DNA of 30,770 nt from positions 1 through 30,770 of the IMG/VR virus record IMGVR_UViG_3300030107_004580, one strand, 5' to 3'. Positions 1-30,622 of this stretch are shown here, piece after piece (within the stretch, counting starts at the first letter, position 1; the number at the start of each line of letters is the position of its first letter). Both the position numbers and the translations under genes were made by a program. The notes beneath the pieces were generated by a model. It worked only from the letters and a program-made list of their open reading frames with translations, did no database searches and was not told the DNA's origin. The stretch comes from a virus.

Positions 1-3000
1 ATAGCTGATTGTAATCCTGTAAATATGATACCTTGAATAGCACCATAGTATATTATTTTAGATATATGTGTCGCTGTATTTCCTCTACGATTTATAATAT
101 CTCTAAAAGATTTATCTATTATTCTACCGTACTGCATTGGTGTGTTTTGGAATGCTAATATTAATCTACCAAGAGGGTTTGCTTGCTGTTGTGATATTAA
201 ATCGGGTCTCGCTGACTGTTGGGATACTTCTGTTGTTTCCTGGAAGTCTAGCCAAGCTCTTTTTTCAGCTTCTTGTTGAGACATACCTTTTTTTAAGTAT
301 GATTTTATTCTGTTTCTATAAAAAGTAGCACCACCAGATGCAATAGCAAAACTATCTGCTATTTGTGTAGGTAAAAACCCTTTCTTTAACAACCAAGCGA
401 TAGCCGCTTTAGCTTTGTTTTGACTACCGGCCACAGCAGCGGATAGTTCAGCTTCATTAATACCTCTTCTATTACCAGATCTTCTTTGTTTTAAATAATC
501 TGAATTAAAAATATAAACAAAATCTTTCCAAAATTGTTTTTGATTAGCAAATGCCGCAGCTGCTGCTGCTATGTTGTTATCTGACCAGTTTATATAATTT
601 ACAGCAGATATAGTTTGTAATGTAGCAGAACGTATATTAAAGAACATAATTGCTCCAACCGAATTGTTCACCCAATTCATATATGTGTTCGTCAACCTAT
701 TACTACCTTGCTGTCTATTTTTACCGGTTTTCATTCGAAATAATACATCTTCTAAAGCTTCTCTAAATTTATTACCATATATTGCTTCTACTTTATTTAA
801 GTTTTCTTTAGAAAATATTTGATCTACATTTTGTTGCCATTCTTGTAAATAGTCACTTCTAGCGTCACCAATCGCACCATCACTGAATAAATCTGAATTT
901 ATATTCTCCATTAACCAGTATTCTCCAGGTTTTGAATATCCTTTTTTATGTTTAGAAACCAAACTCAAAGCATCGGCAAAAGCCTGCAATATAGGATCAA
1001 GTTTTACAACATCTGTTAGGGTTTTTAAATCTCTTTTTGATAAACCAGGTATCTTAACACCAGCTTTAGTCCATAAATAAACTCTAACGGCGTGATCATA
1101 ATTAAAACCAGTTCCAGCTATTTTACTTCTTATTTTCTTTTTAATTTCAGGAAAAGAATCTAGTAAATATTTGTAATCTTCTCCTGCTTTTTGCCTTGCT
1201 GTATTAAGCTCATTTATACCTCTAGCGAAAGGATCTATTAATGTTTTCTTGAAAAACTCCATAGCTTGTTCTCCTTTCTCTCCTTTAGGTAAAAAGCTAT
1301 ATAACAAACCTTGAAAATCTTGAGCTGAAGGTGGTATTAATCCTGTAAATTTACGTTTTTTACCTCTTAACTTAGCTTGTGCGTCTGAAAATTTTATAAC
1401 AGCTTGTATACCAGTTGATACTTGTAATATTCTATTAAATTCATTACTAGCTTTTTTACTAAACTGTATTTTTGCTTGAACAACTTTAGATTTTATATCA
1501 AGTTGATTTAAAACATCTTTAACCGCTGTGACATTAGTGATAGCATCGTCAACAAAATACATGTCGTTATATCCTTCTGTAAATTTATTAAGCATCCAAA
1601 GAGCTTTTGCTTCACCAGTACTGTTTCCTAAACCAGTAATATTTTTTAATGGTATACTTACCCCTTTTGATTTTAACCAACCATGTATCGCTGTATCAGA
1701 TTCTTGCGGTCTAGCTGTTAAAACAAAAACATTTTTAGGTCCAAATTTATCAATTTGATTACGCATTTTTTGCAATAAAGGACCATCAACACCGCCCCTA
1801 ACATTTACAAAATCTTCAAAATTAAATTTATATCCTTGTCTAGCTAATTTAGGCCCATCTATAGGCCAAGCGGCTGAACTTATTTTTATAGTTTCTTTTC
1901 CTTTTGTAGCTACAATAAAGTTTTTACCATCTATTATTAGTGTTTCATCAAAATCAAAAGTACTCATGCCTCTAGGATTGTTGTAATTAGATCTTGCATT
2001 TTGAATAGCGTCTTGTAAAGCTTTATTTTTATTACTATTTAAAGAAAAAGATATTTTTGAAGTTGGTTTAAAATAATCTTGTGCTTGTTTTAATGTTTTC
2101 TCTTTCATTATTAACTCATAAATCATTAGATTTTGAGCAGTAATTATTTCATCTGGTATATCTTTTTTAGCGAACCCTAAACCATAATTAGCTGGTATAC
2201 TTTCACCATTATTTAATATTATATTATTCATGTTAACATTAGAATCTGCATATCTAATCAATGGATTAGGTAGATTTTTATAATCTTTATTTCCTAGTTT
2301 TTCATTAAATTCGTTTTGCCATTCTGATGGAAAACCTTTTTTATATAATATATCAACTTGATTTGCTGTTTCTTGTGTTAACCCAATAGTATAATAATTT
2401 TTCTTTATAAAATCAAACCTTTCATTAACAGTACCCGTAGTTATAGCGTCAAACATATATACAGACATTTCTCCAGCTGGGAAAACATGCTCGTTTCTTA
2501 AGTTTTGTACTAATTTACCATCTTGATCTTTAACTTTCTTTTCTATACCATCTTGTCTACCTTTAGGAATAGCCATCATTCTTATAAAATGACTATTAGG
2601 ATAAGATTGACTATTAAATATAGCGGCAATAAAAGGTATATTACTTGGGGTTTTAGCTAAAGTTTCAAAAGCTTTTAATATAATTTTCACACCTTTATAA
2701 TGATCTTCTATTTTTTGTTGATATCCTGGAGATGAAAAATCATTTATACTATACCACTGTTTCCACTGTCTTTTAGCTCTAATAGCCATCTCAACTTGTT
2801 TTACTTGTTCTGGAGTAAAGTTGATATTATTTTTTCTTTGATATTCTTTTACTTTGTTTTGTAAAGCACCTCTAGTACCAAGTTTATCTTTGCTAATATT
2901 AGCCGTAAAAAATTGATTTTGAGATATTCTAGTACTTTCTCCAAAACTAGCGCTATTAATAAACTGCCACGGTAAAACTTTTGATAATTTATTTACAACA

Positions 3001-6000
3001 AAATCTTCCATTAATTTTACATGATCAGGGTTTGAATTATCCAAAATATCATAACCTAATCCTGTAACAACATTATTTATAATTTCTATTGATTCAATAT
3101 CAACATTTGCTTTTCGAGAAAACGATAAATTTGGTTTACCATCTTTAAGTCTAATAACTTGTAATTCAGTAAGTTTTAAGGCTTCTTTTTCTTGTCTTAT
3201 AGCTTGATTTGATGATATGACACCTATTTGTATAACCATAGACCTTAAAAACGGATCGACCTTAGTTGTTTTAACAGTAGGTTGCCCTTTCACCATGCCG
3301 GCTTGTTCTAATAAGAAATCTGGATCAATGTGTAATTTCTTTTGTTCTTTTAACCCTGGGCCTGTTTTTGTTCTAGCTCCTTCGGTATATAATATACCTA
3401 GCTTAGTATTAGCAACTCCAGTGGCTTTACCTTCTTTAGATGTGCCCTCAGGTATTACATAAGTAATAAGTTCTGGATAATTTTTACGTATATAATCTTG
3501 TATCGCGGTTCTTTGTTTTGTAGTAAAATCTACTTCTTTAACTGATCTTAAAGCTATATTAGCGTCACCAAATAAATCTACAGATATTTTTTCCAACACT
3601 TCAAACAACTCACCAGTTGGAACACGTTGAGACTTTTTAGCACCATCATGACTAGTTAATAATTTTTTAACATCTTTGTAAGTCGGTTTTTCTGGAAGTT
3701 TTACTCCACTAAAACGCGTAATACTTCTTATATCTTCATGTGTTTTGTTTGATCCTAAAGCTGCTAAAGTGATTTTCTTTTCTCTTTGTGTTTTTGGTTT
3801 TTTAGTCGGTGCATCGTCCTGCTCTGGCAACTTAGCTTCTTGTGGTAAACTATCTTTAAACTCTTGTATTGCTCTTTTACCTAAAAACGTATTTATATAA
3901 GCGGCTAAATTTCCATAAGTTTGTCTACCTTCTTCAAATTCGTTTTGAACCATACCAACAACGCTTCTGTTAGCATTACCTTTATTAACAAAACCATAAC
4001 TAGCAAATAACATACCATTAATAATATCGTCTTTAAAAGTTTCTTGTTTGGCTATCCAAGCACGTAAGTCCCTAGGTAATTGATCTACATAACGTTCATA
4101 AATATCATTAGCCATACCTTTATATAATTCAGCTATTTCAAAAGCACCGTCTTTACCTTTTTCTTTATATATTGCGTTAACATCAGCAGCGCTTTTTTTT
4201 GAAAACATTAATGACTTTTCGTACTCTGCTGTTTCTCTAGCTGTTCTCCCAAGACCAGTTGTATCAACATAACCTTCTGTTTCTATTTCAACTTGCTCAA
4301 GCAGTGTGCCCCCAATTTCTATACCTTCTTTATATTCTTTTTCTAAAGCTTTTCTTCCTCTTCCGGTTTCTATAGTGTTGTTATAATCTCTAATCCAATT
4401 CCAAACATCTCTTGGTTCTTTCCATTTCGCTGGAACACCATAAGATCTAAATATACGTCTAAAGAAATCACCAAGTTTGGTCCAAAAAGATACATTATAA
4501 CTTATTTCCCCATAAAAAACAGCGTCTGAAAACAAAGCTAATACTTCTTCTGCTTGAGTAGCTGTTAATTCGTTTTCTAATTCTTTCGCTTGTTTATCTA
4601 ATTTTTCAGCAAGTTCAATATCACCACGTGAAAACGCTTCATTTCTTTCAAATATTAATTTTTTTAATTTACCTGGGACTACGGTTCCCGTACTTGTTAC
4701 ATACTCCCAATTCTCTCCATACGCTATTAATCTTTTTCTAAAATCACTATTTTCAACACCTTCTGCGTCTATTTTAATTATCTCTTTATGGAGAGCTTTT
4801 CCAATAGCTAATCTAATAGCTGGGTTTCTTTTTAAAGTTGCTTGTAATAATTTATGTAAAAACTCATGGGCTGAAACGTTTAAATTACCACCTTCTGCAG
4901 ATATAGATGTTTGAGTATTTATTAAAGCTCTTTTTCCATCACGTGTAAAATTTCCGTGAGATTCTCCCATTATCTCTTTAGCGTATTTACTTTTTTCCAG
5001 TTTTCCACTATCTGGATTTTTTACATCTTCCAAGGCAATTATTTCCGTTTGAACTTCAGATCTCTCTTTCAAAAGAAGGTTTCTTTTTTTATCGTCCCAT
5101 TGCTGATTTATCATATTATCTAATTTTTTAAGATAATTTCTTAAATCTTTTGTATATTTTTCTACGTATTCTTCACTTGTTTCCGCTATATCTAAATCAA
5201 ACTCTTCTTCTTCAATACCCATACTCCTAATCAAATCTTTTACATCTTGATTTCTTTGTTGAAAAATATCTTTTCTTTTACTTTCCGCTATATTAGCTTT
5301 AACGTCTTTTAATAATTTATTTTTTTGATCTTGGATACGTATTATATCTTTTTGTAAATCATTTATTTGTATGTTAGCAAGTGTAACTCCACCTTCAAAC
5401 TTACTCTCATACAAACTATTCATTTCTTCTTGTTTTTCCTCTAAACTTATTTCAATTTTATCTAATTTTTCCGCTACATCAGGATTAGATTGCATAATTA
5501 TTTCCATTTCTTCTGCAATAGCCTCGTCCATTGCTTTGCTTTCCATCTCAGCTTCAATTTCTTTTTGTTTTCTAGTAAACCAATTATCAATATTTTCTAT
5601 TTCTTGGCCCCAGATATTCTTTTTAACTTCTGGTTTTGCTTTTGGAAGTATAACTTCTTGCCCAGGTCCAGGACGTTGATCTTTTACTATCTCAATACGA
5701 TCATCTGATTCTCCATATTCTTCTTCATAAGCTTGTTCGTATGCTAAATCAGCTTCGGCTTCTCGATCTTTTTTGGTAGTTGTTTTTTCTTTAGTGGTTG
5801 TTTTTTCTTTAGTAGTCGTTTCTTTTTTAGTAGTTTTAGCTCTTAAATCTAAAGTTTTTTTATAAAGTTTTGGGTCTACCTGCTTATTATTAAGCTGTAC
5901 TTCAAATTTAGTATTTTTATATAGTTCTTGTAATTCAGGATCGTTTTTAAGGGCTTCTTGAAGGTTTTTTTCTCCTTGTATTATTACCTCACTACCATCC

Positions 6001-6044
6001 TTTTTTTTGAATTTAAATCTATGTTTTCCTTTTCCGCCAGCCAT
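1..6044 (-). CDS. Giant multidomain virion/ejection protein (zincin + HAD domains), C-terminus off the left edge
   Basis: The frame opens with ATG at 6044, 5 nt after the stop of the 1206-aa gene, and stays open through 2014 codons to the window edge. I translated it codon by codon and found no stop. Visible parts in order: a Lys-rich N-terminus with a 6-residue tandem repeat (about 71-94); charged coiled-coil helices (about 160-340); a metallopeptidase-like domain with HEFLH at 393-397 and a downstream EEVLALFSD at 499-507; two unidentified domains (about 614-975 and 975-1333); a HAD phosphatase domain (about 1355-1520) with DFDET, LTARP and VDD motifs; then helical sequence with hydrophobic stretches (about 1798-1845 and 1995-2014). 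Position after other ejection-type genes suggests an internal protein delivered into the host, analogous in place to T7 gp16, though no lytic transglycosylase motif was seen. Similar architectures occur among phage 'large polyvalent proteins'. The substrates are unknown. Virion location is inferred. Confidence 0.85.
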   Translation of the reverse strand, partial: MAGGKGKHRFKFKKKDGSEVIIQGEKNLQEALKNDPELQELYKNTKFEVQLNNKQVDPKLYKKTLDLRAKTTKKETTTKEKTTTKEKTTTKKDREAEADLAYEQAYEEEYGESDDRIEIVKDQRPGPGQEVILPKAKPEVKKNIWGQEIENIDNWFTRKQKEIEAEMESKAMDEAIAEEMEIIMQSNPDVAEKLDKIEISLEEKQEEMNSLYESKFEGGVTLANIQINDLQKDIIRIQDQKNKLLKDVKANIAESKRKDIFQQRNQDVKDLIRSMGIEEEEFDLDIAETSEEYVEKYTKDLRNYLKKLDNMINQQWDDKKRNLLLKERSEVQTEIIALEDVKNPDSGKLEKSKYAKEIMGESHGNFTRDGKRALINTQTSISAEGGNLNVSAHEFLHKLLQATLKRNPAIRLAIGKALHKEIIKIDAEGVENSDFRKRLIAYGENWEYVTSTGTVVPGKLKKLIFERNEAFSRGDIELAEKLDKQAKELENELTATQAEEVLALFSDAVFYGEISYNVSFWTKLGDFFRRIFRSYGVPAKWKEPRDVWNWIRDYNNTIETGRGRKALEKEYKEGIEIGGTLLEQVEIETEGYVDTTGLGRTARETAEYEKSLMFSKKSAADVNAIYKEKGKDGAFEIAELYKGMANDIYERYVDQLPRDLRAWIAKQETFKDDIINGMLFASYGFVNKGNANRSVVGMVQNEFEEGRQTYGNLAAYINTFLGKRAIQEFKDSLPQEAKLPEQDDAPTKKPKTQREKKITLAALGSNKTHEDIRSITRFSGVKLPEKPTYKDVKKLLTSHDGAKKSQRVPTGELFEVLEKISVDLFGDANIALRSVKEVDFTTKQRTAIQDYIRKNYPELITYVIPEGTSKEGKATGVANTKLGILYTEGARTKTGPGLKEQKKLHIDPDFLLEQAGMVKGQPTVKTTKVDPFLRSMVIQIGVISSNQAIRQEKEALKLTELQVIRLKDGKPNLSFSRKANVDIESIEIINNVVTGLGYDILDNSNPDHVKLMEDFVVNKLSKVLPWQFINSASFGESTRISQNQFFTANISKDKLGTRGALQNKVKEYQRKNNINFTPEQVKQVEMAIRAKRQWKQWYSINDFSSPGYQQKIEDHYKGVKIILKAFETLAKTPSNIPFIAAIFNSQSYPNSHFIRMMAIPKGRQDGIEKKVKDQDGKLVQNLRNEHVFPAGEMSVYMFDAITTGTVNERFDFIKKNYYTIGLTQETANQVDILYKKGFPSEWQNEFNEKLGNKDYKNLPNPLIRYADSNVNMNNIILNNGESIPANYGLGFAKKDIPDEIITAQNLMIYELIMKEKTLKQAQDYFKPTSKISFSLNSNKNKALQDAIQNARSNYNNPRGMSTFDFDETLIIDGKNFIVATKGKETIKISSAAWPIDGPKLARQGYKFNFEDFVNVRGGVDGPLLQKMRNQIDKFGPKNVFVLTARPQESDTAIHGWLKSKGVSIPLKNITGLGNSTGEAKALWMLNKFTEGYNDMYFVDDAITNVTAVKDVLNQLDIKSKVVQAKIQFSKKASNEFNRILQVSTGIQAVIKFSDAQAKLRGKKRKFTGLIPPSAQDFQGLLYSFLPKGEKGEQAMEFFKKTLIDPFARGINELNTARQKAGEDYKYLLDSFPEIKKKIRSKIAGTGFNYDHAVRVYLWTKAGVKIPGLSKRDLKTLTDVVKLDPILQAFADALSLVSKHKKGYSKPGEYWLMENINSDLFSDGAIGDARSDYLQEWQQNVDQIFSKENLNKVEAIYGNKFREALEDVLFRMKTGKNRQQGSNRLTNTYMNWVNNSVGAIMFFNIRSATLQTISAVNYINWSDNNIAAAAAAFANQKQFWKDFVYIFNSDYLKQRRSGNRRGINEAELSAAVAGSQNKAKAAIAWLLKKGFLPTQIADSFAIASGGATFYRNRIKSYLKKGMSQQEAEKRAWLDFQETTEVSQQSARPDLISQQQANPLGRLILAFQNTPMQYGRIIDKSFRDIINRRGNTATHISKIIYYGAIQGIIFTGLQSA
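1485..1982 (-). other. HAD-superfamily phosphatase domain inside the giant protein
   Basis: Residues about 1355-1520 carry the HAD motifs in the right order. Motif I is STFDFDETLI, with nucleophile Asp1364 and acid/base Asp1366. Motif II is NVFVLTARP, with Thr1443 after a hydrophobic strand. A candidate motif III lysine lies in GEAKALWML. Motif IV is MYFVDDAITN, with Asp1499 and Asp1500 for Mg2+. Spacing is compact with no large cap domain, similar to small phage HAD phosphatases and the phosphatase half of polynucleotide kinase/phosphatase. This suggests a magnesium-dependent phosphomonoesterase, possibly acting on nucleotides or nucleic-acid 3' ends. The substrate cannot be read from the sequence. 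All key residues are present, so the domain is probably active. Confidence 0.8.
4485..5012 (-). other. Zincin-like metallopeptidase domain inside the giant protein
   Basis: Residues about 345-520 of the giant protein contain the motif SAHEFLHKLL, with candidate zinc-binding His393 and His397 and catalytic Glu394. About 100 residues later comes AEEVLALFSDA (Glu499/Glu500 ... Asp507), the kind of helix that supplies the third, glutamate ligand in gluzincin-type peptidases. A Gly/Asn-rich strand region just before the HExxH helix is also typical. In phages, such a domain could cleave host proteins after ejection or process the phage's own polyprotein; which of these applies here is inference. 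The motif alone is short and could be coincidental, but its context (strand, helix, distal E-xx-x-D helix) supports it. Confidence 0.6.
5763..5834 (-). repeat. Four tandem 18-bp units encoding a TTK(K/E) hexapeptide
   Basis: Four consecutive imperfect 18-bp units (5834-5817, 5816-5799, 5798-5781, 5780-5763) encode TTKKET, TTKEKT, TTKEKT and TTKKDR. They form a flexible, charged linker near the N-terminus of the giant protein. The codons vary (ACT/ACC, AAA/GAA) while the frame is kept, so it reads as a maintained linker rather than recent slippage only. Confidence 0.85.
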
Positions 6045-6049
6045 AATTA

Positions 6050-9000
6050 TTATTTATTTTTATATTTTTTTGGAAAATTTCCCCACCACTTTTTATTTTT
6101 TTGTTTTTTTCTAATATTAACATAATTTGCACCTCCAAAAATCAAAGAAGTTACACCCATTGCACCTGCCATTTCTTTAAAAAACGTAGGGTCAAACTCT
6201 CCAGTATTGGGATCTGTAAACGCTACATTCCATTTGTCACCCATTATTAAACTACTTATCGGTTGGTTTATAGCTTCTTCAAACATTTCACCTATAAGAC
6301 CGTTCCAACCTATACCTCTAGACCCAATATAGGCTGCTAGTGCTGTTCTAGTGTTTTTATACTTTTTACCTCTTTTCCACGCTTTAAATTTTTTAGTAGT
6401 AAGTATTTTACTCATAATAGCAGATTCTAACGTAGCGTATCCACCTTGTATTTGTGCTGGTGTTAAGAATTTCAAAAAAGGTAACACGAGTTCAGCTGAT
6501 CTTTCAGTCCCCATTTCAGCCCATGTTACACCATATGCTCTTAAAAGAGCTTCTCCAAGTGGCATTCCTGGCTCCCCGTCATACATTGGTCTCCATGTAA
6601 ATTTTTTGCCATTAAGAGCAGTATGCTCTTTACCATCTTTTATGTTTTTATAGTTAGGACCTTCGTTTTCTATAGTATTTTTATTTATTAAATCTATTAT
6701 ACTACCCTTTTCTTGCGTTTCACTATCTAATATAATATCATTTTTATCATGCTCTTTAAACCCCATAACCATTCCAGGTGTCATATTATCAAACATATAG
6801 CCTAAATACATTTGTGGATTAGCAGCACCATGAATACCAGTACCAACCATCCAGCTTAAACCACCTGCTATTTTAGAACTAACTTTGCCAGTCATTCCCA
6901 AACGCGTTAGTCCTGTTCCTATATATTGTTTAGTACCAAAAAACACCCCTCCAGTCATAGCAAATTCTTGAATGTAAGGAGCCATATCCCTTAACATTGA
7001 TGCTGAATTATACCAAGTACTAACTTCTGATACTTTAGATTGCATCATGTTGTTAAGTTGGTTCATGCTAACAAGTAGATAATCTGTTTCTGTAGGCTTT
7101 GTTTTATTTTTTAATTCTTTAATTCTATTTTTATCTTCACTAGTTGCTTCTTTCTTTTTAACTTTTAACTCTAACATATATAATTCATCTGCATGTTGAA
7201 TTCTTACAGACGCGTTTTTCAAATTATGTGTTTCATAAATACCCTTACCAGCGGATAAAAATGCAACTAACTCAAAAGGATCACCTTTTAAACCTGCAAA
7301 AAAATTCTGTATTCCATTATATTTTCCTTTTAACTGTTCTTCATCTGCATCTAAAATTTCTTGAGCAAAATTCTCTATTTGTTTTAATATTCTCCATTCT
7401 TCACCTTCAGCATTATTAATTAATTTAGAAAAATTACTAACTTGAGGATCAAAAAGATTACGTACATAATCTTTAATAGCAAAAACACTGTAACTTCTTA
7501 CTTTTCCACCAACTTTATCTGCTAATCCGGCATCTACATGTTCTTGTGTAGCTATTTCGTCAGTATATTCGTATGCTAGCTTTCCAAACGAAGGGCTAAA
7601 CATCATATAATAAAACTCGCTTTTCATATTTTCTAGCATTCTGCGTTGTTGTGCAAATTCCTGTCCTTGACTAAAATCTACAGGGTTATTTTTCCTATAA
7701 ACTTCTTCAATCATGTCCCACACATTAACCATAAATCTTTTTTGATCTATTGTTGACAAATTATGAAAATTAGTTGTTTTCATTTTTTCTTTAATCCAAC
7801 TTACATACTCTGTGGGTAATAACTCAAACTCAGGTTTAAAACCTTTAAGAACAAGGTTTTTAGTATACGTTTCCCAATCTGCCTGGGCTTTTGCGTAAAT
7901 TCCCTGCAAACCATCATGATTCTCCAACTCTTTATCTATAGCATGGTTCCAGTATATAGAATAATCTTTCATCGATAACATATAACGGTATTTACCATCT
8001 ATCCTAACCCGTTTAAGTTTTACATCATCGTTTCCAGCTTCTCTAAGTATATTTAAAAATGCCATACGTTTTTTCCCAGCTTCTACAGTCATCTCATTAA
8101 GTTCATCACTTAAAAAAAAATTTTCGTCAGAATGATAAATTCTACCATCTTCGCTAAGCGAAAAATATGTACTGGTAAATTCATTCATTATCGGCACAGC
8201 TGCTTCTTCTGCCTCTTTATAAATAGCTTTTACTTCTTCGTTATTTTCTGGGTCTAAAGATTCTAGTAATTCTTGTTGATATATCCCCGCAGTGTTTATA
8301 ATGTGATGTGTTTTTTTTGCTTGATCGTCTGCTTTAAAATTTTCAATATTATAATCAGACCCAATATTTCCGTATATCGAAAATTGAACTCCATCTGCTT
8401 TAGTAAATATTGCTTTCCAATCAATTTCACCCAAAGTTTCAGTATTTACTTGTTCCCACGTAATGTCTATACCTTTTTCTTTAAAATACTTCACCCACAT
8501 CTTTTTGTTTTCATCTGAAAGCTGAAGTAAAACTTTATCACCATCTTTTTTACCAAAAGTTTTGTCAACGAATTCATCCAACAGTTCTCTAATTTCTGGC
8601 TCGTCATCTGGGTTGTCAACAAGGTTTTCTACAAGAGCATCAACACCAGCTTGTATTGAGTTTGGATTTGAAGAAATGGTAATAGCGTTTGGGTTATTTT
8701 CAAGTTCAATATTTTCTGATTCTATTATAGCACTACCCATCGCGCTTGCGTACAATTCGCCACCACCTAACAAATCATCACTATCCAAATCAACATCTTC
8801 TAACGCATATTTTTTTATAGTTTCAGTAATTCCAGCATCAAATTCAAATTGAAAAAGTTTACTTTTAAAATTTTCTATTTCCGAGGGTTGAGCTAGTTGT
8901 AAGTTTTCCCCAATTAAAAACTGATTTTCATCATTTTTATAGTTTAATATATCATAAACTTCATATTTAAACATACCATTAGAATCATATGATCTTCTTA

Positions 9001-9670
9001 CACCGTCTATTTCTAAAAACTCCTTACCTTTGTCTAAACCAAATATACTATCGTCATACATTCTTAAATAGCCTAGTCGATGGCTTTGTTTATTTTCGTT
9101 TTCTTTTCGTTTTGATAAAGCTAGATTATAGTCTTCTGAATTATATTCTTCAAAAATACTTTTGTCAAAAAAACTTAAATCATTAGTGTTTGAACTGGGT
9201 ACAAATTTTGAATATAAAGAAGTGTTGATAAGAGAGTTTTGATCAAACTCCATGTATTGTCCACTTATTAAAGGGGTGGTTTTTTTCAACCAACTTAATC
9301 CAGGTTCAAGTGTTTTAATTTTTTTAGGCGCAAGTAAAGATAATTTGTTTACATCTAAAGTGCCTTGACCTATTAATGGTGTTTCTTTTGTAATTAAATC
9401 TTTATTTAAATCAGTCTGTTTTCTTTCTTTTTGTACAGTGTTAAATAAATTAGTTTTTATAATACCTAATTCGTATTGGTTATATTTATTAGATTCTATA
9501 AAAGGTTGAATTCTATTTTTTACATCATCTTCTACACTAATTATAGTTTTTGGCTCTTCTTCAGCAGTTTCTTTTTCTTGTACTTTTAATAAATCTTTTA
9601 TCTGAAGTTTTAATCTTTTTCTTATGTCTTCTTCTTCTTGTAGAGATATTGGTATGTTTTTATACGCCAT
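6050..9670 (-). CDS. Large putative internal virion (ejection) protein, 1206 aa
   Basis: I do not recognise a named family. The protein is mostly charged and helical with no signal peptide. From about residue 925 it becomes Gly/Ala-rich and hydrophobic, including MTGGVFFGTKQYIGTGL and GLSWMVGTGIHGAANP. The segment GWNGLIGEMFEEAINQP lies in the C-terminal quarter, a hydrophobic stretch spans about 1166-1184, and the tail is very basic (RKKQKNKKWW...). Size, membrane-active-looking C-terminus and position (between the S74-domain protein and the giant multidomain gene) suggest an ejected internal protein comparable in place to T7 gp15. This is inference from context. It starts 6 nt after the 274-aa gene ends and its stop is 5 nt before the next ATG, so the four ejection-type genes are probably co-transcribed. 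An alternative is a scaffold or cargo protein in the head. Confidence 0.85.
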   Translation of the reverse strand: MAYKNIPISLQEEEDIRKRLKLQIKDLLKVQEKETAEEEPKTIISVEDDVKNRIQPFIESNKYNQYELGIIKTNLFNTVQKERKQTDLNKDLITKETPLIGQGTLDVNKLSLLAPKKIKTLEPGLSWLKKTTPLISGQYMEFDQNSLINTSLYSKFVPSSNTNDLSFFDKSIFEEYNSEDYNLALSKRKENENKQSHRLGYLRMYDDSIFGLDKGKEFLEIDGVRRSYDSNGMFKYEVYDILNYKNDENQFLIGENLQLAQPSEIENFKSKLFQFEFDAGITETIKKYALEDVDLDSDDLLGGGELYASAMGSAIIESENIELENNPNAITISSNPNSIQAGVDALVENLVDNPDDEPEIRELLDEFVDKTFGKKDGDKVLLQLSDENKKMWVKYFKEKGIDITWEQVNTETLGEIDWKAIFTKADGVQFSIYGNIGSDYNIENFKADDQAKKTHHIINTAGIYQQELLESLDPENNEEVKAIYKEAEEAAVPIMNEFTSTYFSLSEDGRIYHSDENFFLSDELNEMTVEAGKKRMAFLNILREAGNDDVKLKRVRIDGKYRYMLSMKDYSIYWNHAIDKELENHDGLQGIYAKAQADWETYTKNLVLKGFKPEFELLPTEYVSWIKEKMKTTNFHNLSTIDQKRFMVNVWDMIEEVYRKNNPVDFSQGQEFAQQRRMLENMKSEFYYMMFSPSFGKLAYEYTDEIATQEHVDAGLADKVGGKVRSYSVFAIKDYVRNLFDPQVSNFSKLINNAEGEEWRILKQIENFAQEILDADEEQLKGKYNGIQNFFAGLKGDPFELVAFLSAGKGIYETHNLKNASVRIQHADELYMLELKVKKKEATSEDKNRIKELKNKTKPTETDYLLVSMNQLNNMMQSKVSEVSTWYNSASMLRDMAPYIQEFAMTGGVFFGTKQYIGTGLTRLGMTGKVSSKIAGGLSWMVGTGIHGAANPQMYLGYMFDNMTPGMVMGFKEHDKNDIILDSETQEKGSIIDLINKNTIENEGPNYKNIKDGKEHTALNGKKFTWRPMYDGEPGMPLGEALLRAYGVTWAEMGTERSAELVLPFLKFLTPAQIQGGYATLESAIMSKILTTKKFKAWKRGKKYKNTRTALAAYIGSRGIGWNGLIGEMFEEAINQPISSLIMGDKWNVAFTDPNTGEFDPTFFKEMAGAMGVTSLIFGGANYVNIRKKQKNKKWWGNFPKKYKNK

Positions 9671-11809: not shown

Positions 11810-13111
11810 TTATGAAGCGGCTCCAACTGCAAACAATCTACTTAGTCCTAGGTAAATCGTGGTGTTACTTGATGGGAATTTTCTAACAATAGCTTTTCCT
11901 GTTATAGTATATTTTTTAGCTAAGTTTACCGCGGTTAATTTAGTGTTTTCAACTAATGTTTGATTAGTTGTCATGACTATTGTTCCAGCACTTGAAGAAG
12001 CACTAACCTCTGTTATAGGATTGGATGCAGTGTTATCAACGCCTAAACCTTCTATATAAGACGAGCCTGCCGATGAAGCAACCTTTCCAAACCCATATGT
12101 TCCATTTACTGTTACCGACGTAGAGTTAGAAACAGTTCCCCTAACTGTTGTAGTACTTGGCGTTGTAAGTTCTATTTTTAAATCTTCAAATGATATATCA
12201 ATCCCAGTGGCGTTTTTAATATTATCCGATCCGTATGCTCGAAATGTCAACGTAACATTATCTGAAAAAGCTCGTGCGGGTTGAATACGAATATAAGGTG
12301 CACCTGGAAGCTCTGTTGCTGTTAAAGGATAATTTTCAGCAACTGTAACTATAGTAGGTGTACTAGAAAGAACACCTGCAGAAGCAGCTGTTATCTCCAT
12401 ACCAACACCTATATTTGTAACAGTATCCATGCCGTACTCTGCGAAATTAGCACTAGCATCTCTACCTGGGTGATCAATAGTTTCAGTCTCTATAAAGAAG
12501 AAATCACTATCTACCAAGGTGTCTTTTAGTTTATACAAACCAAATCCACCCGCGTCTGTAGCGGCGTTTTCTATTGCAAAACTAAAATCTATTGTTTGAG
12601 GATCGTTTGAAACAGGTGATGCTGTCGCTGTAGCGGTTAGAGCGTTTGTTGCACTAGAAAAACTAGAAGAAGCATCTCCTTTTGGCTGTATAGTTAAAGT
12701 CACATCTGCTATTTGTTTTATATCGGTACTATATAAAAATCTATTATAAACATCTGCAACTCGCTCGCCTGAATCAAAATAACTCCCAGCAACATTTTCA
12801 GCAAACTCAGTTTCGAAATGAGCTTCTGCGTATACTATAAAAGTGTACGTCTCTCCATCTGTATCTTCTGGAAAATTTATAGAACCTGTATATGAACCAC
12901 CCTTCATGGTTATATTAGCTAGTTTATTATTAGGTCCATAAACACCGGCGTTGTCATATCTTTTTGCAGAAAAATTATAATATTTATTACCCGATGTTTT
13001 TACTTGTATACTAAAAACACAACCAGTATCACCTGTTATTCTAAAATTTCTAGATTGTCTTAGCGTAGATAAATCAGTTTCATCTATCTGTATTGATGTT
13101 ATTTGTTTCAT
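11810..13111 (-). CDS. Beta-sandwich-rich tail-associated protein, 433 aa
   Basis: The start codon overlaps the stop of the 2307-aa tail gene by one base (TAATG), so translation is probably coupled. The protein is dominated by Thr/Ser/Val/Ala beta-strand sequence, with at least two apparent strand-rich blocks. The first (about 20-110) includes FRITGDTGCVFSIQVK and YTGSINFPEDTDGETYTFIVYA. The second (about 140-430) contains the Ser/Thr repeats common in Ig-like or fibre domains (TTPSTTTVRGTVSNSTSVTV). No enzymatic motif or transmembrane segment was seen. It is most likely a tail-attached fibre, appendage or surface-decoration protein partnered with the upstream nozzle-like protein. That role is inferred from coupling and composition; I do not recognise the family. 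Confidence 0.82.
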   Translation of the reverse strand: MKQITSIQIDETDLSTLRQSRNFRITGDTGCVFSIQVKTSGNKYYNFSAKRYDNAGVYGPNNKLANITMKGGSYTGSINFPEDTDGETYTFIVYAEAHFETEFAENVAGSYFDSGERVADVYNRFLYSTDIKQIADVTLTIQPKGDASSSFSSATNALTATATASPVSNDPQTIDFSFAIENAATDAGGFGLYKLKDTLVDSDFFFIETETIDHPGRDASANFAEYGMDTVTNIGVGMEITAASAGVLSSTPTIVTVAENYPLTATELPGAPYIRIQPARAFSDNVTLTFRAYGSDNIKNATGIDISFEDLKIELTTPSTTTVRGTVSNSTSVTVNGTYGFGKVASSAGSSYIEGLGVDNTASNPITEVSASSSAGTIVMTTNQTLVENTKLTAVNLAKKYTITGKAIVRKFPSSNTTIYLGLSRLFAVGAAS

Positions 13112-16100
13112 TATGTGTTATATTCTATTCCTGAAGTTTGTCCTATTCCCTGAAAATTAAAAGCTTGAAGATCTACAACGTTAGCCTCACCTTTTATATA
13201 ATTAAACCACTTGTTTTCTTTTTCTATAAAATCATTTACCGTTCCAGACTGTTGATCCGTTATAATAGATTGACCAGTCCATCCTTCTGTACCCTCGTAG
13301 TTTAAAGTATTATAACTTTTAATTAACTTTGGGTTTGAGTTTAAAACGCTTGTTATAGTAGACGGTTGTAACACACCATAAAAAGTGTTTCTATTAACAT
13401 CATCCCCGTCGAAACCAACCTCAACATTATGTCTCCAAATTCTTCCTTGATTAAAAGTGTAGTAATTATTAGATGAGCTTACACCAAATTCTGGTATAAA
13501 AGATTTAAAACTTGACCACCCTTTTACTGATTCTTCAAAAGATATAGTAACACCGCTTACAAGATTATCATCTGGACTACCTGTTCCTCTTGTTAGTACG
13601 TTATTATCACTAGATAATGTTAAATTATAAGTTTTATTACGATCATCGTAACTACCCACAATTGAGTCTGAATTTCTTAAATTATCTCTAAAATAATCAT
13701 TCATTCCAGCAGATGATATAGGTGTTAATCCATCCATAGAAAGTCTTAACACCGCGCCTCTTTGTTTATCTGCAAAATAGGCTCTATAAGATTCTTTAGC
13801 AAAAGATTCTGGATTTTTTGATATACCATAATCTCCAACAAAAGGATTGCTATCACCAAGAACGGCGCTAGAAGCTATTAGTTGAGGTTTTCCATCTGCG
13901 TTATACAAAGTGTCTTTACCCGCTGTTATTCTAACAACTCTATCTTCACAAAAAGCAATTAAACTAACTCTTCTTTGAAATAATTTTTGTATACTTCCAT
14001 AAGTAGGGTTTATATCTTTTGTTATTTTTTCTGCTTGTATAAATTGATTTAAATTATTAACACCGCTAGTTGAATTATAAATTCCTGAATATATTAAACC
14101 ATGTTTTCTAGTTTCTTCTTTATATTGCTCTTCTAATGTCGCGGATGCTTTTACGCCTTTACCTATAGTCATTTCGTTAAAATCATCTCTAATTCTATTA
14201 GATTCCACACCATTACCAAAAGAAAAACAATCATAATAAGACAAACCAACTGCTCTAGAACCACCAGTAACTTTGTAGATTAAAGCTAGTTTAGTTATAT
14301 ATGTATCAACTATTTCTTCTACTTGGTATATTATAGCCGTAACAAAACTATTATCTTCGTTAAAAAATCTTATTCGTTTTCCTTGATATTTGTTTGTTTG
14401 CGCGGCTAATCCAGCAGCGTCATTACTATAAGTTTCTGTATTATCAATTTTTAAACCAGGAGAAGCTATTTCTACTATATTATAATAACCATTATTATTG
14501 GCATGCCAATTCGTAACTATAAGTGATAATCCCGCTGCATTTGATGGAAAAGTAGGCATAGAATCTGTTTTATCACACCATATTCTAGATCCAATAGGTG
14601 CAAACAATTCAGAGTTTGATTTTTTAGTACTCTTAAGAGTTACAGGTATTGCGTTACTTGCTTCATAATATATATCTAAATCTACATCTTCTTTTTGTTT
14701 TGTTTCCCATATAGCTGGTGTGTCTGGGGATTCAGAGCCACCGTCAGCGATTACCTCGTCAAAAAATCTAATAGCACTAGAAGTGTCAACATCTCTAACC
14801 CCATAAGGATTTATGTTATAAACAGTATCAGTGGGATCTTTATCCACTTCAATAATATAAAGTAACCGCCTATTAGTTTTGCTACCAAATTTAATCACCG
14901 CATTCATAAAATCATAACGAGATTGCGGTACGGTTCCATATGCGGTAAAACCATCATTTCCACCAACATAACTTTCATTAAGAGCAATGTTGTAATAATG
15001 CCTAATACTAGGTGAAGCAACGTTATCAGCTGGAGCCACCATACTTGTTCCATCCCAAATCTCAACGTTTTCATTACAGTTGGTATGATTGTAAATTCTT
15101 TTAACATTAAACTTTTTAATAGTAAATATTTCGTTACTACCTACGAATCTAAACTTCGCGCCAACTTGTATTTTTGCTGCAACATTTTTCTGATCTTCAT
15201 CTTTTATTTGCCACTGTGTTTTGTAACGATCAACATGTTCTTGTGTGATTTTCAACGTAGCATTTATATTCTCAACCCCAGTAGAGGCGTCAACAGCAAA
15301 AGCCATACCAGTCCCACCTACTCCCTGCATCTGTCCCCGTGGGTCGTAACTAGGTACCCAATTACCATCGTGTAAATCATCTCCAACAGGACTAATTGAT
15401 AGATGGATAAAATACGGTCCTGGAGCATTAGGATCAGTTGCTTCGTATTCCATATTGGAGGTGTACGCTTGAGTTGTCGTTGCGCCAGCCTCGTTACTCC
15501 AAAGTCTACTACCTACCTCACTCATAGTAAACTCGTAATCACCCATTGAGTCAACATTAATTATACCTTCTAAACTATCTACAACGTTACTACCATCTGT
15601 AGCAGGTGGATTAGTATTAGCTACAACACCATGACCTTTCCAAAGCCTACCACTCAATGAGGCTTCTAACGTGCCTGTGGCACCAGTTGGATCAGAAGGA
15701 TCAATTGGCTGTGCCGAGGCCATATAAGCTCTATCTATAAACCAATTTGGTTGTAATTCATTTTCTCCAAAATCAAGTAGATTGTTCCAAGCTCCTTCTG
15801 TATCACTTTTATTAAAACCATGCAACGTTTTTGTGTTTTCTGTATAAGAGTTATTAACACTAGCAACCCCATCTGTGTTAGTGCCATTACCCGCATAATC
15901 AGATTGTTCATCAGCAAAGTAGTAAGCTTTTAAACTAGCTGTTAAACTATAAGATACTTGATCTACTATTAAAGGTTCTAAATAAGCGTTTGTTATAGAA
16001 TCTGATATTATTTTAACAAAAAACCTACCTTCAAATTCAGAAGACTCTCTAATATTTCTCTTTTTAATTTCCACTCTTATAGTTGGATCTAACACACCTG

Positions 16101-19100
16101 ACACATAGGCAAACCCGTCTTCATTTGTGATTGGTTTGTTTAATTTTAACCTATATTTTGGATCGGTGTCTTCATCTAAAACTTCCATACTTAAAATCTC
16201 GTACCTACTAGATTCTATTCTGTTATTACCATCTTCTATAGAAAATTGAAACGTTAGTTTTTCATCTATATCTTCAAGAGCACCCCCAGAATTTTCAACC
16301 CACGTGTCTTTAAATATTAATATTTGGGTCTCATCTTCTTGAGGAATATTAAGGCCAGATAAATAATCAACAAACAAATCTTCTACTATTGCTAACGAGC
16401 CACCTACATTACCTACTTGTTGATAACTATATTTAACATAATCTGGGGCTTCTGTTTTTATATCAACAACTTTAAATTTATTATTAATAGGAACTTGAAC
16501 CTCTCGGTCAGCTTGTTTTTTAAGTATTAAATAATCTTCTTTTTGTAACTTGTTTACATCTGAAGAAGGAAAAGATATCCATAAATTCTCCGTATTTTCT
16601 GCTCTATAAACCCTATCCATAGATAAATTGTAATATTCACCTGAATTTTGTTTAATAAATATTTTGTAATACGTAGCGAAACCAGGCACGTTGTCTTGGT
16701 TTTCCAATGTAGCTGTTAGTTGTATAGATCTACTAGCGTTCCCATCAAAAATAGACGTGCTATCAGCATCCCAAGGTATTTTTACAGAAGCATTTTTACT
16801 TGTAAACACTGGAGTTTCTCTACCATATTCATCTCCATATACAACACCTAATTGATACGTTCTAAATGTTTTGAGTGATTTTTGTCCTGTTGTAAAATCT
16901 ATATTATCATTATCATTAAAAGATCTTTGCCTATAATTAGCTGTGATTTCGGGTTTAACAACACCATCTTCTCCAACCATATTATATCCCTGCGTATAGT
17001 TACCGTAAATTAATCTATTACTAGTTATCTCTTGAGCTAAAGCTTTTTTAGGTACATTGTCCCAAGGTCGTAAAATTTGATTAGATGGTAAAGCGGCGTG
17101 TACATTTTCTTTAGATACAGTATATTTACCCATGTATGAAGTTGGAAGTGCTAATGTGTTTACTACTGGTTGACCGAAAACAGCTGAATATGTATCATAA
17201 ACAGAAACACCCGGTGTTGTATTTGTATTCCAATCATTAAAAGTTTGACCATCAGGCGTGGGATCATCAGGTTTTATACTATCAAGTGAATAAATAGTAC
17301 TTGAGTTTTCTTTTTTAAAAAGTATATCTATTTGTACTACGTCTTCGGGGATATCGGCTGGAACTATATTTAACAAATCTATACTTTGACAATTATTTTG
17401 AATACCTGAGTTATACATGTTTTTGGTAGGATGAAAAGCAAATGAAGAAGCATTAAAAGCTACATCAGTAAACGGTGAGAAAGCTGAGTATTCACCATCT
17501 TCGTACTTCCATCTAGTTCCAAATCTAATAAATTTTTCTTCAAACAATCTATCTTCTTCAATTTCCTTCATTACATTCATGTAAACGCCTTCTGTTGTCT
17601 TGTACATAAAACCAGGAACATTAGGGTTTGGAGGCGTATCAAAACCAGCTGCTGTAGTTGGTACTGAATTGTCTATACTAATAATCTCTACTTTGTATTC
17701 CGTAAAACCAGGCGTACCTATTTGAGTGTATATGTCTACAATAGAACATCTTACTTGGAAATTAGATGGCAAAGATCCAGATTGATTAGGCTGACTTAAC
17801 AATAAAATATCCCCTATATTATAATTAGCACTAACTTGAAGATTAGCAACGTTAATACCTAAACCCCATTGATTAGCAGGCCAATCAGATTGTAAAATGT
17901 TTGGGTAAAATGTGGGATCGGGATCTTGTGATAACTGTAATGTCGTGTCATTACCACTAGTAGTAGCATTGAGAATATGTAAATTAGGACCAAACCCTGA
18001 GGCAACGATTAAATCACCACTACCAACATTAGTGCTACTAGGAACTATTATTTCATTTGTTGGTTCATAAAAATCTTCTGGAGCAACAACTTCAGCAGTT
18101 TTTGACCAGCCTATTCTATCAATATAATCGCCATCATCCGGGTTATTTCCAGGACCAGTTTGATCTGAAATAATAGTAGACCCACCATTATACATAACAG
18201 CTCTTATTATACCACCCGTGTGACTACTTGGTATCGTAAAAACATGGCTAAACGGTGTACCTAAAGTACCAACAGTGTTAACATCACTAGCGTCTCTAGT
18301 AAAATCTTTTGTATCTAAAACTTGATAGTTAGCCCCAAAACCAACATCTGCACTTTGACCATCGTAATCTATTAAAGCAATAGAAAGTGTTTGTGTAGAC
18401 GTATCTAAAGAGTGCCATCTAAAGTAAACTCTAATTTTCTCTCCAACTTCCCATTGCTGCTCAGCATTTGTAGCTAGAACACCATTTTGATAACTATAAG
18501 GACCGCTGCTTGGATTATTGTAAAAATGAAATCTAAGCCAACCAGCACCGTTATCATGGTTTGGACCAGGGTTTAATGGATCTAAATTATCAAATCTTAT
18601 AGCGCCAGTGCCATCATTACTAGGATCACTTGATTGGGAAAGACTTTCCGAATAGTATATATCATCTTGACTACCGTTGTCATAGTTAAATCTATATATT
18701 AAAGGTAAATTTTCATTTGTGTTACCGCCGCCATAATTAAATGTCCCAAATGGATTTATTGAAAGATAATAATTACCACCTGCATAGCCAATAGGATTTG
18801 ATAGCGGTACTGTTTGAGCAGGAGGATCAACAAAATTACCAAGCATAGTAGCCTGTATACTACTACTAAAATCACTTGCTGTTCTAGCTATTCTTACAAA
18901 AGCCGTGTCGCCTTGTGATACTAGATAAGTTCCATCACCACCACCATCATATGGATTTGATGGATCAGCGTTTACCGATGTCGAACCTTGTGAAAAATCA
19001 CAGTTAGCACTTAACTCTTCGGCACCACCAGGTATATTAACACTTAACTTTGGAGCTAACATTGGTCTTTTTTTAATAACGGCTATATGTTGCTCCTCTA

Positions 19101-28405: not shown

Positions 28406-30622
28406 TTAATTTTTTATTATCTTTGAAATATTACCTTTGTTAGAATACTTAGCAATATCTATATTTAATTTTGGTTTTTGTATTTTCGCGTTTGGCCTAT
28501 ATAAGTGTCTATTACAAGCCATAATTGCTAATCCAGAACTAATAGTCGCGTCAAATTTAGTTCTTTTTGTTATATCAAACCTACCCCAATCGTTTAGCGT
28601 TTTGTTAAAATATATATTACCATAGTTACCATCTCCTAAATGACCAACGTGTTGTTGTATATACATTTCAATTGCAGCTGCGTGAGCTTGTTTAATATCC
28701 TCGCTAGAATTAGGTATTCCACCAATTTCCTTTTCTGTTACTGACAGTTTGTTCCAAACTTTATCTGGTCTATTCATAGAGTAACCTCTATAACCTCTAC
28801 GTCTTAAATAGTATAATAATCTCGGTTTATTATTTTCTGCCAAAAGAGGCATTCCATAAAACACTAACGCCATTAATACATCTTCGAAAAATATTTCTGA
28901 TGTTTGCGGTCTAGCTATATATTCTAAAAAAAAATGATTAGCCGGGGCGTCTTCCATACTAAATTTAGTTAAACCATGTAACGCACCATTAGAACCTCTA
29001 CCATCAACTGTCCCTGATATATCATAACTATCACAACCAAAAGCACCCATATGTTCATTACCAGGATATTTTATACCGTTTTTAACTACAATACGGTTTT
29101 GTAAGTTTTGAGCTGGCGTCCAACTAATTTTAAATCTACCTTTTGGATTTGGATAAAATATAACTTGCGTATCTTTTACTCCATTTACCCATTGAAAATT
29201 ACCAGTAGATATGTTTGCTAAATTACCAATACCATCGTTATAATCTACTTGTTCATATATTTTAACTAAATTAAAAACACTATTTACTGCTTCATCTCTA
29301 AAAGCGTGTTCTTCAGTTCTTGGAAATTGTCTATAAAACTCATTTAAAGCGTCGTGATCTTGTTTTAATCCCTCTGCTTCATTTTCCCAATGCTCTATTA
29401 TACCGATATCTATTAATTCACCATCTGGATCGAGGACATCTGTGTCAGGGTTATCAAATACTGGAAGTCCGTATTCGTCAATAAATCCTTCGTAGTTCCA
29501 TTCCATTGGGATGAACAAAGAGTATAAACCAGATTTTGTCTGGCCATTTCTATTTCTTTGCGTGACATCCGAAGCGTTATATAGTTTTTTAAAATTGTCT
29601 CCACCTTTGTCTAATGCGTTTGAAGTTGAGCCCATCATACATTTACCAACTATTCTACTACCTAGTCGTAAACATGTCTTTGTAACTCTCCAGTTATTTA
29701 ATATATTATCAGGTCTTTCCCATTTACCACTTTCATCATGTACTAATAAGTTTAGTTTCTCACCATCATAACTATTATCACCAGTGTTTTTCCAATCTAT
29801 AGTTGTGTCTAAACCTTGTATATCTTCAATCTGTTCGTTTGCAGTTATTTTTTTTCTTGTAAACTTACTAGCCGGTACTCTATAAGCTAATTCTGTTTTA
29901 GGTCGATCCATACCATCTTGAATCGGTTTAAAGAAAAACGGATAGTTTATACTAATAGGCACTACTTTATCTGTAAACATTTTTTTTGCATCTGCACCTG
30001 TTTTAGAAAGTATACCATATCTACTATCACTTGATATAGTAGCTAAGTTAACTGTTTCTGCAGATGACATGAACGAAAACCCTGATCTTCTGTTCTTTAG
30101 ATAGCACATACCATAACATCTTTTATCAGCTTTGCAAGCCTCCCAAAATATAAAAAACAATCTATTTGCTTCTCTAAAGTCTGGTGCACCTACATCTATC
30201 TTGCTCCATTGAAGATACATATAATGCGTACCTGTTATATATGTTGGTTTATTTTTGTTTATAAACCAAAACCCCTCATCTCTTCTTTTAAATTCTTCAT
30301 CAATATAATCATACCATTTTTCTTTTTGATCTTCTGGATAGTTTCTCCAATCAAATATGTTTTTGATTCTTTGAAGTTCTTTAGGGTATTCTTGTTTAAC
30401 CCATTTGTTTTTAGGATGTTTATATATTTCTTTAGGAGCTTTTGGTAAAGCTATGACTAGGTTTTGTATTTCTATAATCTCACCTATAACACCATTTTTA
30501 GAAAGTACAATTAAATCGTGTTCTTTGTCGTAACCATATTTCCATTTTTTACCCCTATTCATTCTAGTAATAGTGGTTCTTTTTATAGGCTCTACTGTTT
30601 TAACTAAACTTTGCTCGTACAT
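28406..30622 (-). CDS. terL: Terminase large subunit (packaging ATPase and nuclease), 738 aa
   Basis: TerL docks on the portal, pumps DNA into the prohead by ATP hydrolysis and cuts the concatemer. Visible motifs: a P-loop-like segment CYLKNRRSGFSFMSS (173-187), in which the usual GK[ST] lysine is replaced by Phe182 with a Lys upstream (176); Walker B NLLVHDES (291-298, Asp296 and catalytic Glu297); and coupling motif MMGSTSN (329-335). The C-terminal RNase H-fold nuclease has Asp531/Asp534 in FGCDSYDISG, a candidate Glu596 in PLLAENN, and Asp691 in TKFDATISSGLA. Length is within the usual 500-750 residues, at the long end. The ATG at 30622 overlaps the preceding TAA by one base (TAATG), fixing the start. 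Assignment is confident; nuclease residues 2 and 3 are inferred from order. Confidence 0.93.
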   Translation of the reverse strand: MYEQSLVKTVEPIKRTTITRMNRGKKWKYGYDKEHDLIVLSKNGVIGEIIEIQNLVIALPKAPKEIYKHPKNKWVKQEYPKELQRIKNIFDWRNYPEDQKEKWYDYIDEEFKRRDEGFWFINKNKPTYITGTHYMYLQWSKIDVGAPDFREANRLFFIFWEACKADKRCYGMCYLKNRRSGFSFMSSAETVNLATISSDSRYGILSKTGADAKKMFTDKVVPISINYPFFFKPIQDGMDRPKTELAYRVPASKFTRKKITANEQIEDIQGLDTTIDWKNTGDNSYDGEKLNLLVHDESGKWERPDNILNNWRVTKTCLRLGSRIVGKCMMGSTSNALDKGGDNFKKLYNASDVTQRNRNGQTKSGLYSLFIPMEWNYEGFIDEYGLPVFDNPDTDVLDPDGELIDIGIIEHWENEAEGLKQDHDALNEFYRQFPRTEEHAFRDEAVNSVFNLVKIYEQVDYNDGIGNLANISTGNFQWVNGVKDTQVIFYPNPKGRFKISWTPAQNLQNRIVVKNGIKYPGNEHMGAFGCDSYDISGTVDGRGSNGALHGLTKFSMEDAPANHFFLEYIARPQTSEIFFEDVLMALVFYGMPLLAENNKPRLLYYLRRRGYRGYSMNRPDKVWNKLSVTEKEIGGIPNSSEDIKQAHAAAIEMYIQQHVGHLGDGNYGNIYFNKTLNDWGRFDITKRTKFDATISSGLAIMACNRHLYRPNAKIQKPKLNIDIAKYSNKGNISKIIKN

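Follow-up and report, generated by a model that had tools for sequence, protein, structure and literature searches.

The question raised by this locus is what a virus would do with a protein of more than two thousand residues encoded at the end of its virion genes. We addressed it in the 30,770-nucleotide stretch of viral DNA that carries the gene (the window) and among relatives of the protein in viral contigs. An earlier note, made from the sequence, had described a single giant multidomain protein combining protease-like and phosphatase domains.

The giant gene and its neighbors

Positions 3..6044 of the window, on the minus strand as are all features below, read through 2014 codons without a stop; we call this open frame P0001. 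At the composition of the window, the chance of such a frame is about 10^-82, and its codon usage is in line with that of five late genes (r=0.90). The claim of a single giant gene is thus borne out, as is that of its place at the end of the virion cluster, P0001 closing a late gene cluster that runs through TerL, portal, capsid and tail genes. The 42,439-bp virus record ends at window base 1, so that P0001 is truncated and its C-terminus is missing; from the colinear relative L047 (2378 aa) and the close relative L044, about 320-340 residues are lacking. P0001 gave zero matches by tblastn against 50,697 phage records at E 1e-3, and no convincing family match in Pfam, PHROG and NCBIfam searches.

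The late cluster starts with the terminase large subunit (28406..30622). It also encodes a 2307-aa virion protein with a weak match to crAss001 gp44 (13111..20034) and, beside P0001, a 1206-aa protein without family match that is, from its context, a candidate internal protein (6050..9670). Most cluster genes (those of TerL, the portal, MCP, the 2307-aa protein and others) are homologous to genes of Cellulophaga phage phi18:3, and several of these phi18:3 homologues have been recorded as virion proteins by MS/MS. The same record exists for phi18:3 gp123 (1935 aa), whose gene closes the equivalent cluster. Like P0001, both gp123 and gp101 of Cellulophaga phage phi38:1 are encoded by a giant gene that comes last in a homologous virion cluster, these phages belonging to Pachyviridae and Pervagoviridae. 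However, gp123 is equivalent by position only, and profile-profile comparison of its C-terminus with the C-terminal module of P0001 gave no detectable sequence relation. Because this positional equivalent is found in phi18:3 virions, we infer that P0001 probably enters the host as cargo of the virus particle.

A constant C-terminus behind changeable modules

At least 587 IMG/VR contigs carry giant proteins of the P0001 family. The complete members (n=111) have a median length of 2915 aa and a maximum of 4134 aa, and the plan of the family is a conserved all-helical C-terminal module behind a changeable row of N-terminal modules. In P0001, this row is made of a zincin-like HExxH...E domain, two domains termed D2 and D3, and a HAD phosphatase; with the C-terminal module, they form the assembly of disparate domains in one chain by which polyvalent proteins are recognized. 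Scans of viral contigs with single domains recovered almost solely the relatives L047 and L050.

The chain begins with a Lys/Glu-rich region common to L047 only (residues 1-344; 5013..6044), delimited by its sequence and by profile envelopes. Alignment and profile place the zincin-like metallopeptidase domain at residues 345-577 (4314..5012), with the motif HEFLH at residues 393-397 (4854..4868). The HExxH signature (H393, E394, H397) and a downstream Glu, E500 in P0001, are invariant in 25/25 aligned relatives, and the zincin profile matches 74/111 complete giants. Weak matches to Peptidase_M78 were obtained in 3/25 relatives (best E=3.3e-4). Judged from these residues, the domain is a likely metalloprotease.

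The two following domains, of about 360 aa each, are exchangeable. D2 (residues 614-972; 3129..4205), delimited by profile, has a confident and mostly helical model, and its alignment contains no stretch conserved enough for scanning. D3 (residues 978-1331; 2052..3113), delimited by profile, alignment and model, contains an invariant pair, E1185-H1186, and an upstream His and Arg that are almost invariant. Neither matched a Pfam LPD family at the thresholds used. The earlier note could put no name to these central domains, but they are not unique, each being detected by profile in 37/111 complete giants. Searches by Foldseek and VIA with a 1200-residue model returned mainly HAD structures. Since these filled the result list, no fold could be assigned to the zincin-like domain, D2 or D3, and an unlisted fold is not an absent one.

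The HAD phosphatase (residues 1355-1527; 1464..1982), recognized by motifs and fold, is found in 103/111 complete giants. Its motifs I, II and IV, in which DxD, T and DD are conserved, read D1364xD1366, T1443 and D1499-D1500 in P0001. In two models, the fold matches, at Z 10-11, were headed by the 3'-phosphatases of T4 Pnkp and Pnkp1 (Z 11.0-11.2, with an rmsd of 2.4-2.6 across 126-129 residues), with a small lead over other HADs, the best non-Pnkp fold reaching Z 10.5 in one model and 9.4 in the other. From these closest solved folds, we predict a Pnkp-type 3'-phosphatase acting on DNA or RNA ends. The resemblance to T4 Pnkp (1ltq, 5uj0) extends to the presence of a PNK-like kinase in at least 11 relatives, L013 and L014 among them. 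However, the kinase precedes the phosphatase in T4 Pnkp, whereas in these relatives it is nested within the HAD domain, between motifs I and II; P0001 has no kinase. An RNA ligase was considered as a partner of the phosphatase and rejected, PF09414 occurring in 3/20 records, which are fragmentary, and not in the record of the window.

The C-terminal module (residues 1535-2014, incomplete; 3..1442), defined by structural match and homology, is present in all giants by construction of the set. Its model is similar to C-terminal parts of 'large polyvalent' phage proteins: against BFVD structures, it matched proteins annotated as PolyVal ART, MuF C-terminal or LPD (E 1e-13 to 1e-5), these matches being distant (model pLDDT 75, TM about 0.4). 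The sequence profile of the module gave no match to LPD38-bearing loci; Pfam found no named LPD/PolyVal domain in P0001, and LPD14 in 1/42 relatives scanned (E=5.9e-6). The C-terminus of gp74 of Tenacibaculum phage Gundel_1, annotated as 'structural protein', is homologous to the module (E=1.2e-9).

What the earlier note had taken for a hydrophobic C-terminal region is in fact this all-helical module. The mean hydropathy of its best 19-residue window is only 1.2, so that no clear transmembrane helix is seen in the part encoded here. The note further proposed that the protein would travel in the virion and might act ahead of phage gene expression. Several of its other claims fared better. The multidomain make-up is upheld by the zincin motif and the HAD fold, the zincin-like domain by H393-E394-H397 with the invariant E500, and the phosphatase by its core motifs and top Pnkp matches in both models, while the proposed borders (345-560, 614-975, 975-1333 and 1355-1520) agree with profile envelopes and AlphaFold2 linkers. 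The seam peptide described below, the constant-C/variable-N design and the Pnkp-like character of the phosphatase were absent from that first reading.

A short peptide at the module seams

A short peptide of the type [IV]K[FY]S[KR][SN] is repeated at module seams in P0001 and its relatives. It lies mostly between the zincin and the C-terminal module, at about eight times chance: the stretch from the zincin to the end of the HAD domain contains 56 seam peptides vs 6.9+-2.2 in shuffles. The density is 0.61/kb in this stretch, 0.052/kb upstream of the zincin and 0.016/kb in the C-terminal module. Counted in a strict form, [ILVM]K[FY]S[KR][STN], the peptide occurs 44 times vs 0.6 expected.

At each of the four seams of P0001 (4/4), the peptide is matched or partly matched, and each site falls within or next to a linker modelled with low confidence by AlphaFold2. 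LMFSK (residues 612-616; 4197..4211) ends linker 578-613 and LSFSR (973-977; 3114..3128) lies inside linker 972-983. The third peptide, ISFSL (1331-1335; 2040..2054), is the partial match, at linker 1331-1337, and IQFSK (1526-1530; 1455..1469) is found at linker 1527-1533. In the relative L045, the C-terminal module has a gene of its own, which starts at the seam. Unlike P0001, phi18:3 gp123 and phi38:1 gp101 have no repeated seam peptide.

The Ser codons of the peptide mix TCN and AGY as the background does. The constraint on the seams is thus on the protein and not on the DNA, and a DNA-level recombination signal is ruled out as the cause of the peptide. Overall, the seam density is 0.43 per kb in giants with a zincin vs 0.15 without (p=5e-4, kinship being ignored), and in 35/89 giants that have a zincin, the strict form is missing between it and the C-terminal module. 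Giants with and without a zincin do not differ significantly in carrying the seam at the HAD/C-terminal border (Fisher p=0.30).

Probable ejection, possible processing and the alternatives

Because its C-terminal module resembles those of large polyvalent proteins, P0001 is of an already known kind, the new details being the seam peptide and, in relatives, the kinase nested in the phosphatase. P0001 is likely, in our view, to be one of the polyvalent (ejection-type) proteins of phages, encoded here by a short-tailed phage with relatives among those of Flavobacteriia. Like the proteins described under that name (PMC5512222), it is giant and multidomain, is encoded near virion genes, contains a zincin-like MPTase domain and has a structurally similar C-terminal module. 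A HAD phosphatase such as that of P0001 goes unmentioned in the paper's main text, and its passages on these proteins note no seam peptide. The C-terminal module would serve to pack the protein in the particle and/or to take it through the tail, and the remaining modules would go to work in the cell as infection begins. The phosphatase could clean the 3' ends of broken DNA or RNA, either for repair of the incoming genome or on tRNA or DNA cut by host defences.

One could also wonder whether the chain remains whole. Iyer et al. (2017, PMC5512222) proposed, on indirect evidence, that zincins probably process polyvalent proteins. A hypothesis less certain than the rest is that P0001 would be a polyprotein from which separate enzymes are released by cleavage at the recurring F-S-K/R peptides of the seams, the protease being either its own zincin domain or a different one. 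Such processing is an attractive but unproven extension of the ejection-protein reading. In its fullest version, a virion-delivered polyprotein whose own zincin cuts the seams would yield an exchangeable enzyme kit including a nucleic-acid end-healing unit, with in some relatives the nested kinase; we put this forward tentatively.

On the other hand, P0001 could be ejected as one uncut chain, with the seam peptide as a flexible hinge, or a point of unfolding, so that the modules can thread the tail singly. A precedent is N4 vRNAP (gp50), an ejected protein of ~3500 residues in which an HExxH domain precedes a large, helical C-terminal one (PMC12633501). According to the 2017 paper, this protein is packaged uncut despite its HExxH domain, and its domains are loosely connected (PMC5512222, PMC12633501). 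The enzyme modules of P0001 differ, no RNA polymerase domain being found in its Pfam scan, and the likeness is one of architecture, with no sequence link implied. The location of the seam peptides within predicted flexible linkers also fits an uncut chain, as does the lack of the strict form in many zincin-bearing members. A hinge, however, needs no fixed six-residue sequence, and the large excess of the strict form among unconserved flanks is poorly accounted for by flexibility; we regard the uncut chain as a credible, if uncertain, possibility.

It seems unlikely that the peptide is a mere by-product of shared ancestry, inherited with domain ends and carrying no signal. Such descent would suit the HAD/C-terminal seam, which most members share by homology (its 43 sites collapse to 9 contexts), but the seams between the zincin and the HAD end fall into 34 non-redundant contexts with unconserved flanks, and single proteins can carry the peptide more than once. 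Most improbable is a non-virion late protein that helps in assembly or morphogenesis and whose zincin would be a maturation protease, for although the late cluster position and a zincin that may act on other late proteins would agree with it, the other virion proteins of the window have no clear seam peptide, the C-terminal module matches ejection-type polyvalent proteins and the positional equivalent is present in phi18:3 virions.

For the ejected polyvalent protein that we favor, the presence of a Pnkp-like phosphatase in nearly all complete members suggests the repair of nucleic-acid ends as a possible first task of the infecting particle, perhaps in answer to nucleases with which the host defends itself. 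Well represented in public viral contigs, the family has a short predicted seam sequence that recurs between the zincin and the C-terminal module in many unrelated contexts, so that the 2017 idea of zincin cutting becomes directly testable.

The giant gene and its late-cluster setting

The earlier note had described a giant multidomain gene, and this observation is sound. P0001 (window 3-6044, minus strand) is a single open frame of 2014 codons without a stop, a run whose chance, given the local base composition, is near 10^-82, and its codon usage follows that of five late genes (r=0.90). The frame is open at the record edge (virus contig, 42,439 bp), and the sequences of relatives L044 and L047 imply that some 320-340 further residues are missing from its end.

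The window gene order TerL, portal, capsid, tail is that of Cellulophaga phages phi18:3 and phi38:1, and is also observed in Flavobacterium elemo phages, Maribacter phage Panino and a Manatee Spring phage. In each of these reference phages, a giant gene (1691-3859 aa) closes the cluster. The record of phi18:3 lists its terminal gene product, gp123 (1935 aa), among the virion proteins, citing "experimental MS/MS proteomics analysis". Profile-profile comparison found no relation between the C-terminal parts of the P0001 family and gp123, which therefore backs a virion role by position only. Gundel_1 gp74, a 2486-aa frame adjoining TerL and labelled "structural protein" without stated evidence, matches the C-terminal module (E=1.2e-9). 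The ejection-protein reading of the earlier note is supported in part, by the virion-cluster position and a polyvalent-like C-terminal module; the virion role itself is inferred.

Two side observations concern this cluster. The 2307-aa virion protein at window 13111-20034 weakly matches crAss001 gp44 (E=3.6e-5), hinting that crassviruses and this phage may have a tail component in common. The phage of L051 encodes a GroEL-type chaperonin (Cpn60, E=3.7e-51) upstream of the late cluster (L051:7524-9098, record about 35,524-37,098), which could help to fold giant virion proteins.

A mosaic family of modular proteins

P0001 had no match among 50,697 phage records and has 49 relatives in IMG/VR. 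A search with the C-terminal profile matched at least 587 contigs, 80 of which were kept, and 18 more matches come from bacterial or archaeal MAGs, on what are probably contigs of viral origin. Complete members (n=111) have a median length of 2915 aa (maximum 4134); all have the C-terminal module, since the search selects for it, and the counts for the other domains are 103 for HAD, 74 for the zincin and 37 each for D2 and D3. Over the N-terminal 1300-3000 residues the family is mosaic, full-length colinearity with P0001 being limited to L047. N-terminal segments of some giants (L027 62-309, L022, L025, L029) are common to Panino gp69, annotated as a tRNA methyltransferase, and elemo gp18, both without this C-terminal module, which argues that cargo modules are exchanged between lineages.

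The zincin-like domain claimed earlier (residues 345-577) has H393, E394, H397 and E500 invariant in 25/25 relatives, with only weak similarity to Pfam Peptidase_M78, in 3/25. D2 (614-972) and D3 (978-1331) are confidently modelled as mostly helical, D3 keeping E1185-H1186 and an upstream His and Arg. In structure, the all-helical C-terminal module (1535-end) resembles the C-terminal ends of phage proteins annotated as PolyVal ART, MuF or LPD (E 1e-13 to 1e-5), and Pfam LPD14 was found in 1/42 relatives scanned. Pfam DUF5763 was matched by 9/42 members (best E=9.7e-9).

The predicted HAD phosphatase (1355-1527) is borne out by its motifs (D1364-x-D1366, T1443, D1499-D1500) and by two AlphaFold2 models, from L044 and P0001, whose top solved fold is the T4 Pnkp or Pnkp1 3'-phosphatase (Z 11.0, rmsd 2.6 over 126 residues; Z 11.2, rmsd 2.4 over 129 residues), a small lead over the next proteins (Z 10.5 and 9.4). 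In some relatives (L010, L013, L014, L030, L032, L049, L082, L127, L138, L147, L156), a PNK-like P-loop kinase of ~200 residues, absent from P0001, lies inside HAD between motifs I and II. These motifs are 278-281 residues apart in 11 members and 78-81 in nearly all others. Pfam AAA_33/Zeta_toxin scored above cut-off in L010, L013, L014 and L030; AAA_33 takes in polynucleotide-kinase-like proteins. Nucleic-acid end repair would suit a kinase joined to a phosphatase of Pnkp-like fold, but given the Zeta_toxin similarity the kinase may have other substrates.

A seam peptide at module borders

Module borders repeatedly carry a short peptide, [ILVM]-x-[FY]-S-[KR]. P0001 has five globular parts, and all four seams that separate them show a match or partial match lying within or bordering a model linker: LMFSK at 614 (linker 578-613), LSFSR at 975 (972-983), the partial ISFSL at 1333 (1331-1337) and IQFSK at 1528 (1527-1533). 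The strict form [ILVM]K[FY]S[KR][STN] occurs 44 times in 135 giants versus 0.6 expected, and once versus 0.3 in other long ORFs. Domain edges have 3.04 sites per kb versus 0.018 inside domains, sites at homologous edges being counted anew in every protein. Zincin-bearing members concentrate the peptides between zincin and C-terminal module, with 56 sites (34 non-redundant) from zincin to HAD end versus 6.9+-2.2 in shuffles; upstream of the zincin the density is 0.05 per kb, and in the C-terminal module 0.016. No comparable repeat was found in the reference-phage giants checked or the window's other virion proteins, and no description of the seam peptide or nested kinase in the open-licence papers searched.

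A DNA repeat as its source is ruled out: flanking residues are unconserved and Ser codons are both TCN and AGY, near background proportions, so conservation is at the protein level. In L045:6063-12076, the C-terminal module is its own 702-aa gene and immediately follows a gene of 1303 aa, the break falling at the HAD/C-terminal seam, with a sequencing frameshift as a possible alternative cause. The terminal giant gene of phi46:3 (L181) is likewise in two (gp120/gp121, 1439 aa and 626 aa).

Possible seam cleavage and proposed function

We hypothesize that a protease, either the zincin or a different one, cuts the chain at seams. Supporting this idea, seams sit directly downstream of the zincin, they are denser in zincin-bearing than in other members (0.43 versus 0.15 per kb, p=5e-4, uncorrected for relatedness), and a published study (PMC5512222) proposes zincins as processors of polyvalent proteins. 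On the other hand, 35/89 zincin-bearing members lack a strict seam in the stretch separating zincin from C-terminal module, and the HAD/C-terminal seam shows no association with zincin presence (p=0.30). A close functional parallel, N4 vRNAP, also has an HExxH ahead of a large helical C-terminal domain (PMC12633501) and is packaged uncut, which also speaks against the cleavage hypothesis.

P0001 is a modular giant protein with zincin and HAD catalytic signatures, a polyvalent-like C-terminal module and a non-random seam peptide. The C-terminal module would direct its packaging and ejection, the delivered modules would act early inside the cell, and HAD may serve nucleic-acid end repair. P0001 belongs among phage polyvalent proteins.
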